A DNA stretch of 64,000 nucleotides from NCBI RefSeq assembly GCF_003172895.1, contig NZ_QGKL01000042.1, positions 682,001 to 746,000 on the forward strand, read 5' to 3'. Below, piece by piece: positions 37,965 through 44,250 of the stretch. Made by a program: the position numbers and the translations under genes. Positions within the stretch are counted from its first letter, which is position 1; every line of letters starts with the position of its first letter. Source of the stretch: Leucothrix arctica (GTDB lineage: Bacteria > Pseudomonadota > Gammaproteobacteria > Thiotrichales > Thiotrichaceae). The notes beneath the pieces are model-generated. The model saw nothing but the letters and a program-made list of their open reading frames with translations, searched no databases and had not been told where the DNA came from.

Positions 37965-40133
37965 TTACTTAACCTTCCCAACCGACCAAAAGAAAGTTTC
38001 CCCAGAGCTATCATCCACACCATCATTGTCCGTAGAAACAAACATTTCTCCAGTCACATCAACTGCTAACCCCTCAACTTTATCCTGCACATAACCATTA
38101 AATGACTTCAAATCAGGCACTAAATCACGCACCAACGCCTTCTTAACAACAGGCAGCTGACCACCGAGCTTCGCAGGCTTCATATCCGCCAATGCAACTT
38201 TATAGATCCTCTTAGTGACTGCCGCATCACCAAGCTGATTATCACGCTCAATTATATAAGCATAATCACCATGTGCCGTTATCTCAGAAAGTCCAACCCA
38301 GCCCTGCTTAGACTGAGCGACAGGATAGTGAACCGCACCCCACTCCTCAGTTTTAGTATTGTAAGCCACCAATTTCACATGGTGCTTAGGGTCATCTTTC
38401 CACTCACGCTGCACCGCCATCCACAGTGTGTCGCCAACCTTAGTGATACCCTCAAAACCAAAGCGCTTCTCAACCTCCATCAACGCTGTAGGTAAACCCA
38501 CTTCAGCAGTAATCTCGCCTTTAGCGTTAACGTTATATAGCGCATGAGGAATCTCACGGTCAGAACGACCTTCCGAAGCAATCCAGAAGCCGCCCTTACC
38601 GTCTGAAGTAATTCCTTCCATATCTAACTTCTGAGCGGGTAACCCGTCACGCGTCACAAGAATTGCGTTAGTAATTAGTGCTGGTTTTTGCGTTGCATTA
38701 ATCTCAAAAATCGTAGGCTGCATACTATAAAAACTGTCATTTACGGCATAAACCTTGCCAGACTGTTTAGCGTCAGCAACCATGCCTGAAATCGCACCCC
38801 AACCAATTAACTCATCCGCACCTGCCGAGGTTAATTGTGGGTAGTTCGCTGGCGCATCCTGATATTGATAAACCATTACATGAGCACGTACACCGCCATC
38901 CTCGACAAGGTCTTTCTCGTTAGCCGTCACCAACAAATTACGTGAAGGAATCGCAACCACGCCCTCTGGCGCAATACCAGATGGCAACATCTGCTTTAAC
39001 ACTGGCTTTGCAGGGTTACTCATGTCGTAAACTGCAACCGCTGAACCACGCTCAGAGCCAATAAAGGCTAGAGTCTTACCCTCAAAAACACCTGTTTCAG
39101 CAGACTCAGGCTCGCCACCTTTTTTGCCCGAACGCTTTTCAGGATAGTGACCAATCTGTACTAACGCATGCTCAAAGGTAGAGTTACTTTCATAAACAAC
39201 TGAGCCGTCTTTATTAAACACTGTCCAGCTTCGTGAACCACCTTTGTAGTCGCCTTCATTTGCCGTTATGAAGTGCTCATCATCCATCCATTTTACTGAG
39301 TCAGGCTCACGTAAACGGCCTTTTTGTGTCTTATCAAACGTCAATGCACCATCACGTTTAAGATCTACTTCCACGAGATCAACGCTACCCGCTGAGAAGT
39401 GCTTCATCACCTTGCCGTCTTTATCGAGAATGACTATGTGGTTGTTCTCTTGAAGCGTGACCACGGTTTCACCAAGCCCATTAATTGACACAAACTCTGG
39501 CTCTGGGTCGGTTGGAGCAACCTCTGAAAGCCCTGTTAGGTCTATCACCTTTTTAGAGCCGCAATTAATTCTGTCATCTGCAACGGTAAACATCACCACG
39601 TTACCCGCTGGCATCTGTGGCATTTCACCATCGTTTAAGTCTTCGTCTCGCTCATTTTCAATCGCAACAACAACGAAAGTTCCGTCTTTAGCCACAGCAA
39701 CCGAGTCTGGCTGCCCTCCAATATCACACCGTGCTAGTTCCTCTTTGGTTGTTATATCGATAACTTTCAGCATACCTGAAGGTTTTACGTAGCTCTCTGA
39801 AGTGTTCACGCCTACAAAAGCGTTATTACCAATAAGCGCAACCGATGTTGGCTCGCCACCTAATGAGATATTACCTAATGGCTTGGGTGAATTTGCATCG
39901 GTTAAGTCGATTAGACCTAAAGATTCTAACGGGCTATCCGTATAAACCAGTGTCATACCGTCTGCTGTTACTGCAATAATTTCTGGTGAGGTTTCACGCT
40001 TAGTATCCTCACCAGCCGCCATATTAGTTGGCGTTGCGAATGATGCGATACGATTGAAATTCATTTCTGCCATTGCAGGTGCAGAAGCGATAAGTGCGGC
40101 GACGGAACATGCCGAAAGAAGTGTGCGAATCAT
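37965..40133 (-). CDS. Exported esterase-like/phytase-family beta-propeller protein
   Basis: 722 residues. Signal peptide MIRTLLSACSVAALIASAPAMA. The N-terminal ~400 residues form beta-propeller-like blades (TDSPLESLGLIDLTDANSPK, GGQPDSVAVAKDGTFVVVA, REPDSVKWMDDEHFITANEG, KTLAFIGSERGSAVAVYDM). The C-terminal third (LDMEGITSDGKGGFWIASEG, HALYNVNAKGEI, GFEGITKVGDTLWMAVQREW, DKVEGLAVDVTGEMFVSTDN) matches the esterase-like activity of phytase domain. Members act on phosphate esters outside the cytoplasm or are structurally related proteins of unknown substrate. Location is periplasmic or secreted. It is monocistronic. Confidence 0.88.
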   Translation of the reverse strand: MIRTLLSACSVAALIASAPAMAEMNFNRIASFATPTNMAAGEDTKRETSPEIIAVTADGMTLVYTDSPLESLGLIDLTDANSPKPLGNISLGGEPTSVALIGNNAFVGVNTSESYVKPSGMLKVIDITTKEELARCDIGGQPDSVAVAKDGTFVVVAIENERDEDLNDGEMPQMPAGNVVMFTVADDRINCGSKKVIDLTGLSEVAPTDPEPEFVSINGLGETVVTLQENNHIVILDKDGKVMKHFSAGSVDLVEVDLKRDGALTFDKTQKGRLREPDSVKWMDDEHFITANEGDYKGGSRSWTVFNKDGSVVYESNSTFEHALVQIGHYPEKRSGKKGGEPESAETGVFEGKTLAFIGSERGSAVAVYDMSNPAKPVLKQMLPSGIAPEGVVAIPSRNLLVTANEKDLVEDGGVRAHVMVYQYQDAPANYPQLTSAGADELIGWGAISGMVADAKQSGKVYAVNDSFYSMQPTIFEINATQKPALITNAILVTRDGLPAQKLDMEGITSDGKGGFWIASEGRSDREIPHALYNVNAKGEITAEVGLPTALMEVEKRFGFEGITKVGDTLWMAVQREWKDDPKHHVKLVAYNTKTEEWGAVHYPVAQSKQGWVGLSEITAHGDYAYIIERDNQLGDAAVTKRIYKVALADMKPAKLGGQLPVVKKALVRDLVPDLKSFNGYVQDKVEGLAVDVTGEMFVSTDNDGVDDSSGETFFWSVGKVK

Positions 40134-40262: not shown

Positions 40263-42290
40263 TTAACGCTCTTCTGATTGGTAATACCATTTATCACTAT
40301 CAATCAATCCACCAGTGAAATCATCATAAACACCACCGCTGGTGCTGAACTCATCTAAGTGAACTGTGATGAGGCCACTGTCATCAACTTTCGTGACATT
40401 GTAAGCTTCAACTCTGAATCTAACGCTTTGAAATAGAGCTGGGTTAAACGTATAACCACCAGCTGCAACAACTTCTTCGTTTGAGGTAAAACTAGCAAGT
40501 GGTGTACTACCTACTTCAACACCATCAATACTAAAGTCAAAGGATGAAGAATCACTATCCCAAGCCATTTCCATTGTGTGGTTACCTGTGAAGTCTGTAT
40601 CAAGTGTTACCGTTTCAATCACTTCAACCTCAGTAACAAGCTCACTTGCCAAGATAAACCTTGCTGTTACTTCTTCGCCGTAATAGCGCAAACGTAAAGA
40701 CACTGAAAGACTAAGATCCTCATTATTTGGGAACTGATAATAAGCGTACATACGTGTTTCCAAGCCTGCGCTACTATCTACTCCACGTTGAAGGGATGTT
40801 GCTGATTCATCAATCTTAAACGTTGCCTTAAACGAGCTAGGTGCCTCAGTGTCAACATCATCTGTTAGAAGTCTAGTTCTGTAGTCATCTTCAATCTCTA
40901 TACCATAGCCCTCATTCGCAGCAATATCAGAAGCATAATGCTTTTGTGCGACAAGCTTAGCGGTATTCGCAGGTGCATTATCATTCGCAAAAACACGATC
41001 CAAATAGTTTCTACGTGCACTATCTTCATCCTCTGCTTCGTTACTAATAGCTAACTGATTATTGACGACTTCATAGCCTGGCTCATACACATCACAATTA
41101 TCACCCTCTTCTAACACTTCGCAGTCTAAACCGAAGCGATTGTATTGCTTTTCAGAAATTACCTTTATTTCAGTTTTACCCTCATTAACCAAAGTAGTGT
41201 AAGTACCTACGTCTAAATTAGTATCGTAATCATCACCCTCTGACCCATAGTCGACGTAAAAGAAGTAACCAGCACTAGTAGCGCTTCCCTTAGTAAAGAA
41301 TAGTAAATTTTTTGCGTCACGGTTCTCCCATAAACCATCAATAGGTGAGTCCGTTGCTTCTAGCTTATCAAAGCCAAAATCACCATCTTCTGGCACTGAA
41401 AAGACTAACTGTCCTTCATCAGAAAAGGAATAACCCCAAACTCCGGGCTCTATACCATTAGACCCATCGCAAAGCACGCCTCTATCTTCATCACAAGTAA
41501 GCGCATACCCATCATTATTTTCACGAGTAACAAAAGTTATACTACCGTCGGTGGCAGTGTAAGTACCGTACTCAAAACCTTCTGAACCATTTACCTCTTC
41601 CCACTGCATAGCTAGGTAACGACCATCAGGCAAAAAGTGAAAGATTACCGCTTCTTCACCTGTTAACTGCCATGAGCCAGTTAGTGTATTAAACGTGACA
41701 CCACTATCTGCAAGCGTATCTTCAAAATGAGCAACTGCCTCAGCAGCACTAACAAGCTCTGTCGGCTCATCATCTTGACCACCACTAGTAATCAACGTTT
41801 GAACTGATGCTGAAAAGTCTTCGTCTGAAACATTAAATGAATCAATCGGACTAGCAACTGCTTTTGCAGTATCTGTAATCTCAATCCCGTTACTTGGGTC
41901 TCCATCCTTGTCCAATGTTTGAAGCAAGCGAATCATATTCACTGCTTCGGTATCATTAGGGTCATCAGTATCTGCAATATCTAACGGTGTTACCGTCGCG
42001 GCAGCAGCCACGGGCGGAAACTCTAAAGCACCAATTGAGAAGACAACAGTCTCTCCCGCTTCGTAATCGTATTTACCATCGATATCTGTTACGCCAGACC
42101 TAGTTTCAACATCACCGTCAAAGGTTTTATAGTCGATGTTAGCAACGGGGCTATCTAAAAAAACCCCCGTCAATGTGGGTGGGTCTATGATTTCAACTTC
42201 ATCACTCGAATTACTACTACCTCCGCAACCATGTAACAACAAAGCTGCTGTGATCAAAGCAATATGTTTTGATAATTTCCTCTGTCTCAT
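40263..42290 (-). CDS. Large acidic lipoprotein with beta-sandwich domains
   Basis: 675 residues. Lipobox LLLHGC places the lipidated Cys at residue 22, followed by a Gly/Ser spacer (GGSSNSSDE). The first domain (GVFLDSPVANIDYKTFDGD, VTDIDGKYDYEAGETVVFSI) is a repeat-like beta module often seen in gammaproteobacterial lipoproteins. Two related modules follow, each with a GxW start, a GTYT strand and a CDE/CE cysteine pair (LTGSWQLTGEEAVIFHF; IDGLWENRDAKNLLFF). The C-terminal ~180 residues resemble a concanavalin/LamG-type sandwich. Surface or periplasmic binding, or adhesion, is likely. It lies 87 bp downstream of the SUMF1-like gene and sigma factor, so it may be their target. Confidence 0.8.
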   Translation of the reverse strand: MRQRKLSKHIALITAALLLHGCGGSSNSSDEVEIIDPPTLTGVFLDSPVANIDYKTFDGDVETRSGVTDIDGKYDYEAGETVVFSIGALEFPPVAAAATVTPLDIADTDDPNDTEAVNMIRLLQTLDKDGDPSNGIEITDTAKAVASPIDSFNVSDEDFSASVQTLITSGGQDDEPTELVSAAEAVAHFEDTLADSGVTFNTLTGSWQLTGEEAVIFHFLPDGRYLAMQWEEVNGSEGFEYGTYTATDGSITFVTRENNDGYALTCDEDRGVLCDGSNGIEPGVWGYSFSDEGQLVFSVPEDGDFGFDKLEATDSPIDGLWENRDAKNLLFFTKGSATSAGYFFYVDYGSEGDDYDTNLDVGTYTTLVNEGKTEIKVISEKQYNRFGLDCEVLEEGDNCDVYEPGYEVVNNQLAISNEAEDEDSARRNYLDRVFANDNAPANTAKLVAQKHYASDIAANEGYGIEIEDDYRTRLLTDDVDTEAPSSFKATFKIDESATSLQRGVDSSAGLETRMYAYYQFPNNEDLSLSVSLRLRYYGEEVTARFILASELVTEVEVIETVTLDTDFTGNHTMEMAWDSDSSSFDFSIDGVEVGSTPLASFTSNEEVVAAGGYTFNPALFQSVRFRVEAYNVTKVDDSGLITVHLDEFSTSGGVYDDFTGGLIDSDKWYYQSEER

Positions 42291-42377
42291 GTTCTCTCCT
42301 TGTATCTATTGAGGGATTCCTCAATACCAAGTAACAAATGAAAATAGAAAACTTAAGGGGTAGTTATTAAAAATATT

Positions 42378-43640
42378 TTATTTATTCGGATTTTGCCAAT
42401 CGCTAGCAACACGAAAGCCATACAAATTACTTCTATCGTGAATTGCTCCCTTACTACGAATCGCTGAACGAATACCTGCTGCATTCATATCCCAGGAGCC
42501 ACCGCGACGGACTTTTTGACTGTTATTATTGCAAACTTCCCAAGCACTACCATCCACCGGTGCACCATCATAAGTATCGTGCCAGCAGTCTTGAACCCAT
42601 TCCCAAAGATTCCCAGAGGTATCTTGCACGGAGAACTTATTAGCAGGAAATTGACCAACAGGTGAAGCAAACTTCCATAGGTCCTTGCCAGATTCACCGC
42701 TATAGTTCGCCTGATTATTGTTAGCGACAGAGCCCCAATGATAAGCTGTCGCCTTACCGCCTCGAGCAGCGTGCTCCCACTCTGATTCAGAAGGTAGACG
42801 GTAGCTTGTCTTGGTTTCTTTACTTAGCCATGCAATATAGTTTTGAGCATCACTCCAACTCACGCATGTAACAGGATAGCTATCATCTTGATAATAGCCC
42901 GGTGACTCCCACGTCAGTTCTGGCTTCATCACAAAAGGACCTCCAGGCTTAGTTGTATCTTCATGTACACAACCTCTATTTTCCCGCTCCGCATCGGTAA
43001 TGTACTTAGCCGCAGCGATAAACTTTCTAAACTGGCCGTAAGTCACTTCATGCTGTGATATTAGAAAAGGCTCAACCGTAACAGCGTGTGGAGGAAACTC
43101 GGTGGGCCTACAGCCACCAGCAAGGTCGTCCCAACCCTTAGAGCATCCCTTGTTAGTAACACCACCCGGTATTAACAACATATTAGGCAAAGTGCCTACA
43201 TTTTCATTTTCATTCAGAGCAGGATAATCAGAGAAGTTTAAATGTGAATGATCTGCCAACTCCGACTCAGAGGTTCTGTTACCCACACCATAAGTCAGCA
43301 GCAATGCGTAAACAGAAAGTCCACCAATTAAAATGCCCACACCATACGTTTTAAAAACATTTCGCCAAGAAGTACCACCTCTGCGTTTTGCTTCTTCAAC
43401 CGTTCTTCTATAAATGACTCTCGCTTCTTCTGCGGAGATTGTGTCTAGGTACTCATCATCGACGCTATTAACCGCCGTGACCTCATCACGCGTCAGTAAA
43501 TAACTCCGTATTTTGGCAGCATTGATATGATTTTTATTATCGGCATCAGGCGCTATCTCGCCATGCAGAACTTTGTACCACTGCTCTTTATCATCCTTGG
43601 CGATTAATGTTTGATCTTGATCATTATCTTTTTGCGACAT
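42378..43640 (-). CDS. Membrane-anchored SUMF1/FGE-like protein next to an ECF sigma factor
   Basis: 420 residues from the ATG at 43640, with AGGAG upstream. The N-terminal ~105 residues are cytoplasmic, charged and helical (EQWYKVLHGEIAPDADNKNH; EEARVIYRRTVEEAKRRGG). One membrane span (YGVGILIGGLSVYALLLTYG) leads to a periplasmic formylglycine-enzyme-like (SUMF1) domain: FLISQHEVTYGQFRKFIA, YPVTCVSWSDAQNYIAWLS, RLPSESEWEHAARGG, VQDTSGNLWEWVQDCWHD, VRRGGSWDMNAAGIRSAIR and GFRVASDW. The catalytic Cys pair of true FGE near the RGGSW region is absent, so sulfatase activation is unlikely. Placement 7 bp after the sigma gene suggests an anti-sigma or sensor role; this is inference. Confidence 0.85.
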   Translation of the reverse strand: MSQKDNDQDQTLIAKDDKEQWYKVLHGEIAPDADNKNHINAAKIRSYLLTRDEVTAVNSVDDEYLDTISAEEARVIYRRTVEEAKRRGGTSWRNVFKTYGVGILIGGLSVYALLLTYGVGNRTSESELADHSHLNFSDYPALNENENVGTLPNMLLIPGGVTNKGCSKGWDDLAGGCRPTEFPPHAVTVEPFLISQHEVTYGQFRKFIAAAKYITDAERENRGCVHEDTTKPGGPFVMKPELTWESPGYYQDDSYPVTCVSWSDAQNYIAWLSKETKTSYRLPSESEWEHAARGGKATAYHWGSVANNNQANYSGESGKDLWKFASPVGQFPANKFSVQDTSGNLWEWVQDCWHDTYDGAPVDGSAWEVCNNNSQKVRRGGSWDMNAAGIRSAIRSKGAIHDRSNLYGFRVASDWQNPNK

Positions 43641-43647
43641 ACATCTC

Positions 43648-44250
43648 CTAACAATGCTCAAGCACAAGATTGCTTAATTTCTTCTTGAGCAAACAAATGC
43701 GTTGTCCGATAGCGCCAACAGTTCGCTTAGAACGTTCCGATATTTCGGTATAACTGAGCCCAAATGCATAAAGTGTATAGAGCGTGATGTCAGACTTACC
43801 CGTTTTCTCGGACTCGATGACGCCAAACATTTTTTGCAAGCAGTCTAGTTGGTCCTGCATTCCTGTCTCTAACCCCTTACTTAAAATATAAGGAACACCA
43901 CAAGTAGTCGCTGTCTGTTCAGGGTCTTCATAGCCCGTAATAACAGAGCGCTGACCATTTCGCTTTCGGATGTGGTTGATACACTGGTTTCTCACGACGG
44001 TATAAACCCATGCTTTTGTACAGTTATCCCTTACTTTTTCTCCGTGACATATCAACTTTAAAGACACTTCTTGATGAATTTCTTGTCTATCATGAAAGTC
44101 TAAATTGCAGTAAACACTAGAGAAGTGGTGTATGTACCGTTCAACCATACTCAAGATAGCCGCCCCACTATCATTTGTCTGATCAAGCAAATTACATAGC
44201 ATTTGTGAACAACTGTCAGCCTTAGTCGTATCAACAGCCTGTTTATTCAT
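43648..44250 (-). CDS. ECF-type RNA polymerase sigma factor
   Basis: 200 residues, the size of group 4 (ECF) sigma factors. Region 2 lies near residues 35-105 (FHDRQEIHQEVSLKLI, AWVYTVVRNQCINHIRKRNG) and region 4 near 145-195 (ITLYTLYAFGLSYTEISERS, TVGAIGQRICLLKKKL), a helix-turn-helix for the -35 box. It is followed after 7 bp by a membrane-anchored SUMF1-like protein, the place where an anti-sigma factor is normally encoded. ECF factors are released by their membrane partner on an envelope signal and usually activate their own operon. The 193-bp upstream gap would hold that promoter. Confidence 0.88.
   Translation of the reverse strand: MNKQAVDTTKADSCSQMLCNLLDQTNDSGAAILSMVERYIHHFSSVYCNLDFHDRQEIHQEVSLKLICHGEKVRDNCTKAWVYTVVRNQCINHIRKRNGQRSVITGYEDPEQTATTCGVPYILSKGLETGMQDQLDCLQKMFGVIESEKTGKSDITLYTLYAFGLSYTEISERSKRTVGAIGQRICLLKKKLSNLVLEHC

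Follow-up and report, generated by a model that had tools for sequence, protein, structure and literature searches.

Among described systems, the closest in layout to the locus analysed here is the RpoE-RseA type of sigma/anti-sigma pair. In this type, the sigma gene is followed by the gene for a single-span membrane protein, with a cytoplasmic N-domain of four helices and a periplasmic sensor. In the class I anti-sigma domain (ASDI), three bundled helices lie on sigma region 4, and there is a fourth helix (PMC7406223). In some ECF sigma factors, among them OrbS and CorE, cysteines at the C-terminus act as an on-board sensor of metal (PMC9023288). A second group of relatives concerns the periplasmic half of the protein described below. 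PvdO is a periplasmic protein needed for the last oxidation of pyoverdine; purified PvdO is inactive and contains no detectable cofactor (PMC6206403). The formylglycine-generating enzyme, FGE (SUMF1), has the same fold with a catalytic Cys pair. In the conflict systems of bacteria, FGS domains, i.e., members of PF03781, have been assigned the role of sensors (PMC8195603, PMC7159879). For these domains and for the DGR proteins (TvpA) of the same superfamily, the proposed use is binding rather than catalysis.

The window, a 64,000-nucleotide stretch (contig positions 682001-746000) of DNA from the filamentous marine bacterium Leucothrix arctica, belongs to a Leucothrix-group genome of 4.75 Mb in the family Thiotrichaceae. 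Its minus strand carries, at the positions given in a preliminary description, a sigma gene, a SUMF1 gene and a lipoprotein ORF. The features are as follows.

43648..44250, minus strand: ECF-type sigma factor, 200 aa, with a Pfam Sigma70_r2 match and 16 aligned homologues
43840..43842, minus strand: codon of sigma Cys137, at the start of region 4, invariant in 17/17
43651..43653, minus strand: codon of Cys200, the final residue of the sigma, likewise invariant in 17/17
43644..43649, minus strand: AGGAGA, the SUMF1 ribosome-binding site, which overlaps the stop codon of the sigma gene
42378..43640, minus strand: membrane protein of 420 aa (N-domain, transmembrane helix, SUMF1/PvdO-like domain)
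43365..43598, minus strand: predicted cytoplasmic N-domain, residues 15-92, three predicted helices, candidate sigma-binding domain
43284..43364, minus strand: predicted transmembrane helix region, residues 93-119, from hydropathy, flanking charge and a model helix at residues 92-116
42405..43190, minus strand: predicted periplasmic FGE-sulfatase/SUMF1 domain, residues 151-412, with six invariant Cys and no catalytic pair
40263-42290, minus strand: lipoprotein ORF with a signal peptide and the lipobox-like LLLHGCGG

Seven bases separate the sigma stop from the SUMF1 start. This start is almost surely the ATG at 43640, giving a protein of 420 aa, because AGGAGA precedes it and most SUMF1 homologues also start there. 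An ORF of 429 aa with a TTG start would run into the sigma gene. Since the AGGAGA overlaps the sigma stop codon, translation of the two genes is likely coupled.

The sigma factor matches PF04542 (Sigma70_r2) with an E value of 1.2e-06 and 28.6 bits, above the cut-off of 24, and its length is consistent with the ECF type. Region 4 scores 19.2 bits against PF08281, below the cut-off of 25.7. The ECF assignment made earlier stands, and as the NCBIfam sigma70-ECF score (36.7 bits) is under the cut-off of 42.9, we read the protein as a divergent ECF. Cys137 and Cys200 are kept even in a paralogue at 24% identity, which is one of the 17. Because both cysteines are invariant, and because OrbS and CorE use C-terminal cysteines, it is quite possible that the sigma itself receives a redox or metal input. 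The analogy has its bounds: the OrbS and CorE cysteines are clustered, whereas the Leucothrix sigma has one terminal Cys and a second where region 4 begins, and, unlike OrbS and CorE, it is accompanied by a partner membrane protein. The promoter motif that the preliminary description had hoped to find did not emerge; upstream of 16 sigma genes, no shared word or dyad rose above shuffles.

A family-wide alignment search in Thiotrichaceae gave 17 strong sigma matches (E < 1e-70), and all 17 stand directly before a SUMF1 gene or what is left of one; the SUMF1 gene is broken in one case (L140) and in another (G006:C198) is cut by the contig end. The window genome has its closest relatives in Leucothrix, and the named loci include L. 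pacifica and Leucothrix MAGs. Full-length SUMF1 homologues, N-domain included, are present in Thiotrichaceae, and the ORF listing places a sigma of the same family directly upstream of nearly all of them. The L. arctica genome itself has three paralogous pairs of this kind. Distances between sigmas correlate with those between SUMF1 domains (Mantel r 0.84) and between N-domains (r 0.74); no permutation of 5000 reached either value. Operon inheritance alone would also produce such correlated distances. The pairing is well beyond chance and is conserved in Thiotrichaceae, so that the pair first noticed in a single window is real.

The pair also appears restricted in its distribution. When 369 genomes of the class and 398 of the phylum were searched with the sigma family, strong matches were confined to Thiotrichaceae, and a search with the N-domain outside the family again left strong matches in Thiotrichaceae alone. 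Outside Thiotrichaceae, the most closely related SUMF1 domains were examined at 75 loci, and none of these has an adjacent ECF gene, as judged by a home-made ECF profile that may miss distant ECFs; at one of them (L028), an ECF lies about 3.6 kb off. The search for ECF-SUMF1 pairs across genomes that had been suggested finds them in Thiotrichaceae and not at these 75 loci.

Within the family, a few loci depart from the rule. At L131, an intact SUMF1 gene lies beside a sigma remnant, and L133 has a SUMF1 gene without any sigma. The sigma is retained at L132, where helices 1 and 2 of the N-domain are gone, and is intact at L140, where the break in the SUMF1 gene has removed most of the N-domain. 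At L172, a related sigma is followed by a different transmembrane protein with no SUMF1 domain and an N-terminus that is loosely similar (hhalign probability 20%, a weak resemblance). This arrangement is expected if the outer sensor domain can be exchanged. No other homologue of the L172 membrane protein was found within Thiotrichaceae.

A single strongly hydrophobic segment occurs in the SUMF1 protein, at residues ~98-119 in the 420-aa numbering; five K/R flank it on the N-side and one on the other. This pattern predicts about 90 cytoplasmic N-terminal residues, a single transmembrane helix and a periplasmic SUMF1 domain, which agrees with the single-span topology proposed at the outset. In a model built from a shallow alignment, the N-domain has three main helices, at residues 15-25, 36-59 and 70-88, of which the first two reach pLDDT ~94. 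Its invariant residues are W21, G27, A41, L48, Y77 and R87. The N-domain matched nothing in Pfam above chance, the hit of one member to the anti-sigma family Sigma_reg_N being at E 0.21, and found no match among PDB sequences. Comparison of the model with PDB folds (Foldseek, VIA-align) gave nothing above chance, a weak test for a short helical model; for the same reason, the absence of solved anti-sigma domains from the fold matches says little.

By gene position and predicted topology, the SUMF1 protein stands where a transmembrane anti-sigma factor usually does, as had been suggested. The conserved adjacency to an ECF sigma gene that marks ASDI proteins is found here as well. In contrast to the RpoE-RseA type, however, the Leucothrix N-domain has three predicted helices and no recognised anti-sigma sequence, and a complete SUMF1/PvdO-like domain makes up the periplasmic part. 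The N-domain is a candidate anti-sigma domain, in the right place and of the right size.

The outer domain belongs to PF03781 (E 4.5e-53) and shares the FGE fold; the copper-binding catalytic Cys pair of FGE is absent. None of 18 homologues has a Cys between residues 376 and 400, the catalytic stretch, so all of them share the lack noted in the window. Invariant Cys do occur at six other residues (166, 177, 224, 259, 352 and 370) and would fit three periplasmic disulfides. The outer-domain model superimposes on PvdO (PDB 5hha) with Z 23.0 and rmsd 2.9, at 39% identity over 233 residues, and FGE structures come next at Z ~22. As these Z values are tied, the sequence score was preferred as the guide: the match to PvdO is 2e-39 and the next best is 3e-19. 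By this measure, the nearest relative of the outer domain is PvdO rather than a true FGE, although the curated PvdO equivalog model gives 151.1 bits, under its cut-off of 500. The label of a degenerate FGE is accordingly misleading, as the PvdO branch, a periplasmic one within the superfamily, lacks the pair too. In the alignment, PvdO has counterparts of the DCWH cysteine, of the cysteine in the following segment and of the VTC/GC pair; the cysteines of GC..GWDD..GGCR are extra in the Leucothrix domain. The Leucothrix protein further differs from PvdO in its predicted membrane anchor, its cytoplasmic domain and its sigma partner. Given the role of PvdO, and its lack of activity and cofactor when purified, the outer domain could bind or oxidise a small molecule.

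Conservation is 0.60-0.70 in the outer domain and 0.49 in the N-domain, and the mean over residues 376-412, 0.70, is unsurpassed elsewhere in the protein. DGR diversification of the outer domain was considered and ruled out, since this C-terminal segment is conserved rather than hypervariable. The same conservation, the predicted periplasmic location and the sigma pairing set the domain apart from the FGS conflict proteins and TvpA.

We think it fairly probable that the two genes form a signalling unit in which the SUMF1 protein is the transmembrane regulator of its co-encoded ECF sigma, most likely as an anti-sigma factor. The cytoplasmic helical N-domain would tether the sigma at the membrane and so hold it inactive. 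The PvdO-like domain in the periplasm, which no longer is an FGE, would bind a ligand or partner, whose presence would alter or abolish the grip of the N-domain; the freed sigma would then associate with RNA polymerase and serve its putative regulon. Regulation of the sigma by its neighbour is supported by the constant pairing, the three paralogous pairs, the distance correlation, the conserved cytoplasmic domain, the PvdO match and the swap of membrane protein at L172. Counting against the anti-sigma role are the want of an anti-sigma family match in the N-domain and the exceptions at L132, L140, L131 and L133; the weak L172 resemblance, operon inheritance and the lack of an autoregulatory promoter motif weigh on the same side.

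The kinship with PvdO, which is required for an oxidation step, and the higher conservation of the outer domain would also suit a membrane-anchored PvdO-like oxidoreductase in the periplasm that is merely co-transcribed with the sigma. The sigma would then control itself through its two invariant Cys, responding to metal or redox state in the manner of OrbS and CorE (PMC9023288). A pure enzyme, however, needs neither a conserved cytoplasmic domain nor a constant sigma partner, and no biosynthetic cluster lies beside the pairs. PvdO, moreover, was inactive once purified (PMC6206403), and the sigma cysteines are 63 residues apart rather than clustered. We hold this explanation to be unlikely. 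FecI requires FecR, and FecI-FecR pairs have the same gene order and topology as the pair described here. By this precedent, the SUMF1 protein would be a positive regulator whose N-domain is needed, once something occupies the outer domain, to activate or stabilise the sigma; the decay of the sigma next to an intact SUMF1 gene at L131 fits. Yet the N-domain has no FecR-type sequence match, and the L140 sigma has stayed intact after its partner lost most of the N-domain, although that copy may be decaying. Positive regulation is, on balance, distinctly improbable.

It is more improbable still that the pair is a conflict or defence alarm, with the SUMF1 fold as a lectin-like sensor of invaders (cf. 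Kaur et al.) and a sigma-driven response. FGS domains are known as conflict-system sensors (PMC8195603, PMC7159879), TIR and nSTAND1 genes lie downstream of three pairs, and a caspase gene adjoins the L172 paralogue. These genes are missing, however, from the locus in the window and from the majority of the other pairs, and an outer domain predicted to be periplasmic, with a conserved C-terminal part, does not resemble a hypervariable sensor of this kind. The anti-sigma reading is thus retained, and the system is most likely a lineage-restricted variant of the ECF/anti-sigma arrangement.

A pair of an ECF and a transmembrane regulator is of a kind already known; what is unusual here is the putative PvdO-like sensor. 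In the literature searched, which stops short of the main ECF reclassification, no ECF sigma is described as being under the control of a protein with the SUMF1/FGE fold. The system is still a candidate for an undescribed one, as proposed, a possible listing in that reclassification aside. If the reading is true, the FGE/PvdO fold joins the sensor domains that control sigma factors, as an example of an enzyme fold reused as a transmembrane signal receiver, and the N-domain may found a new class of anti-sigma domain. That all three elements hold together, i.e., a new anti-sigma domain that has no relatives by sequence, a periplasmic PvdO/FGE-fold sigma sensor and a redox- or metal-sensitive Cys pair in the sigma with the invariant C-terminal Cys as its second member, within one lineage-restricted system, is conceivable but doubtful. 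The pair, with at most three paralogous copies per genome, is compact and testable, and offers a way to learn which surface signals filamentous Thiotrichaceae receive.

The lipoprotein ORF, with its signal peptide and lipobox, was found 87 bp downstream as reported. Its proposed role as the effector was rejected: no homologue of it adjoins any other sigma-SUMF1 pair. In a search in 57 relatives, the best relative (G004, 41%, residues 203-675) is at 1.80 Mb, more than 500 kb from either sigma copy of that genome (2.35 and 5.02 Mb), and the remaining matches cover the N-terminal part only, in ORFs of other lengths. As it is not conserved with the pair, the lipoprotein is not counted as part of the system. 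The 87-bp gap between the SUMF1 and lipoprotein genes contains a perfect 8-bp inverted repeat (42307-42326).

Two cysteines of the sigma factor (codons at window 43840-43842 and 43651-43653, reverse strand) are kept without exception in all 17 homologues, the second being the final residue of the protein. Both are also kept in a paralogue that has no SUMF1 partner. A distant sigma paralogue (L172:3442-6038) likewise ends in Cys; the gene after it encodes a 240-aa TM protein that lacks a SUMF1 domain and whose N-terminus is loosely similar to that of the pair's SUMF1 protein, and a caspase-domain gene lies immediately upstream.

Decaying copies of the pair are found in L. pacifica. At L140:4263-4950 the SUMF1 gene is broken and the sigma gene retained; at L131:5504-5640 SUMF1 is retained, and only the last ~35 codons of sigma are left.

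Several kinds of genes lie near the pairs at related loci, as follows.

Genes near pairs (locus:coordinates)
Small secreted ankyrin-repeat gene: L134:5096-5935, L135:3191-4096, L136:3210-4082, L137:3267-4130, L139:8090-8938
127-157 aa gene, downstream: L010:10188-10601, L126:4652-5125, L127:1334-1765, L128:3395-3811, L129:6551-6934, L132:6431-6853
TIR-domain and nSTAND1 NTPase genes, downstream: L126:5919-8488, L127:2565-6000, L128:1-1818

The small ankyrin-repeat protein is a conserved neighbor in other Thiotrichaceae genera, with a gene fragment also present at L138. The third pair of the L. arctica genome has a larger secreted ankyrin protein, divergent to sigma (L011:5979-8237). The secreted ankyrin protein is a possible partner or target of the pair. 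Six pairs have the conserved 127-157 aa gene on their downstream side; it has the look of a transposase that was truncated or domesticated, and the copy scanned (L010) contains a DUF772 transposase N-terminal domain. The TIR and nSTAND1 NTPase genes, downstream of three pairs, form a conflict system-like module.

The large lipoprotein of the window (40263-42290, reverse strand) matches no Pfam family; its N-terminal 200 residues are similar to portions of many long proteins in relatives. Just upstream of its start lies a perfect 8-bp inverted repeat, TATTGAGG-4-CCTCAATA (42307-42326), with no further copy elsewhere in the window. A secreted phytase-like/choice-of-anchor I protein (37965-40133) adjoins the lipoprotein on the same strand.
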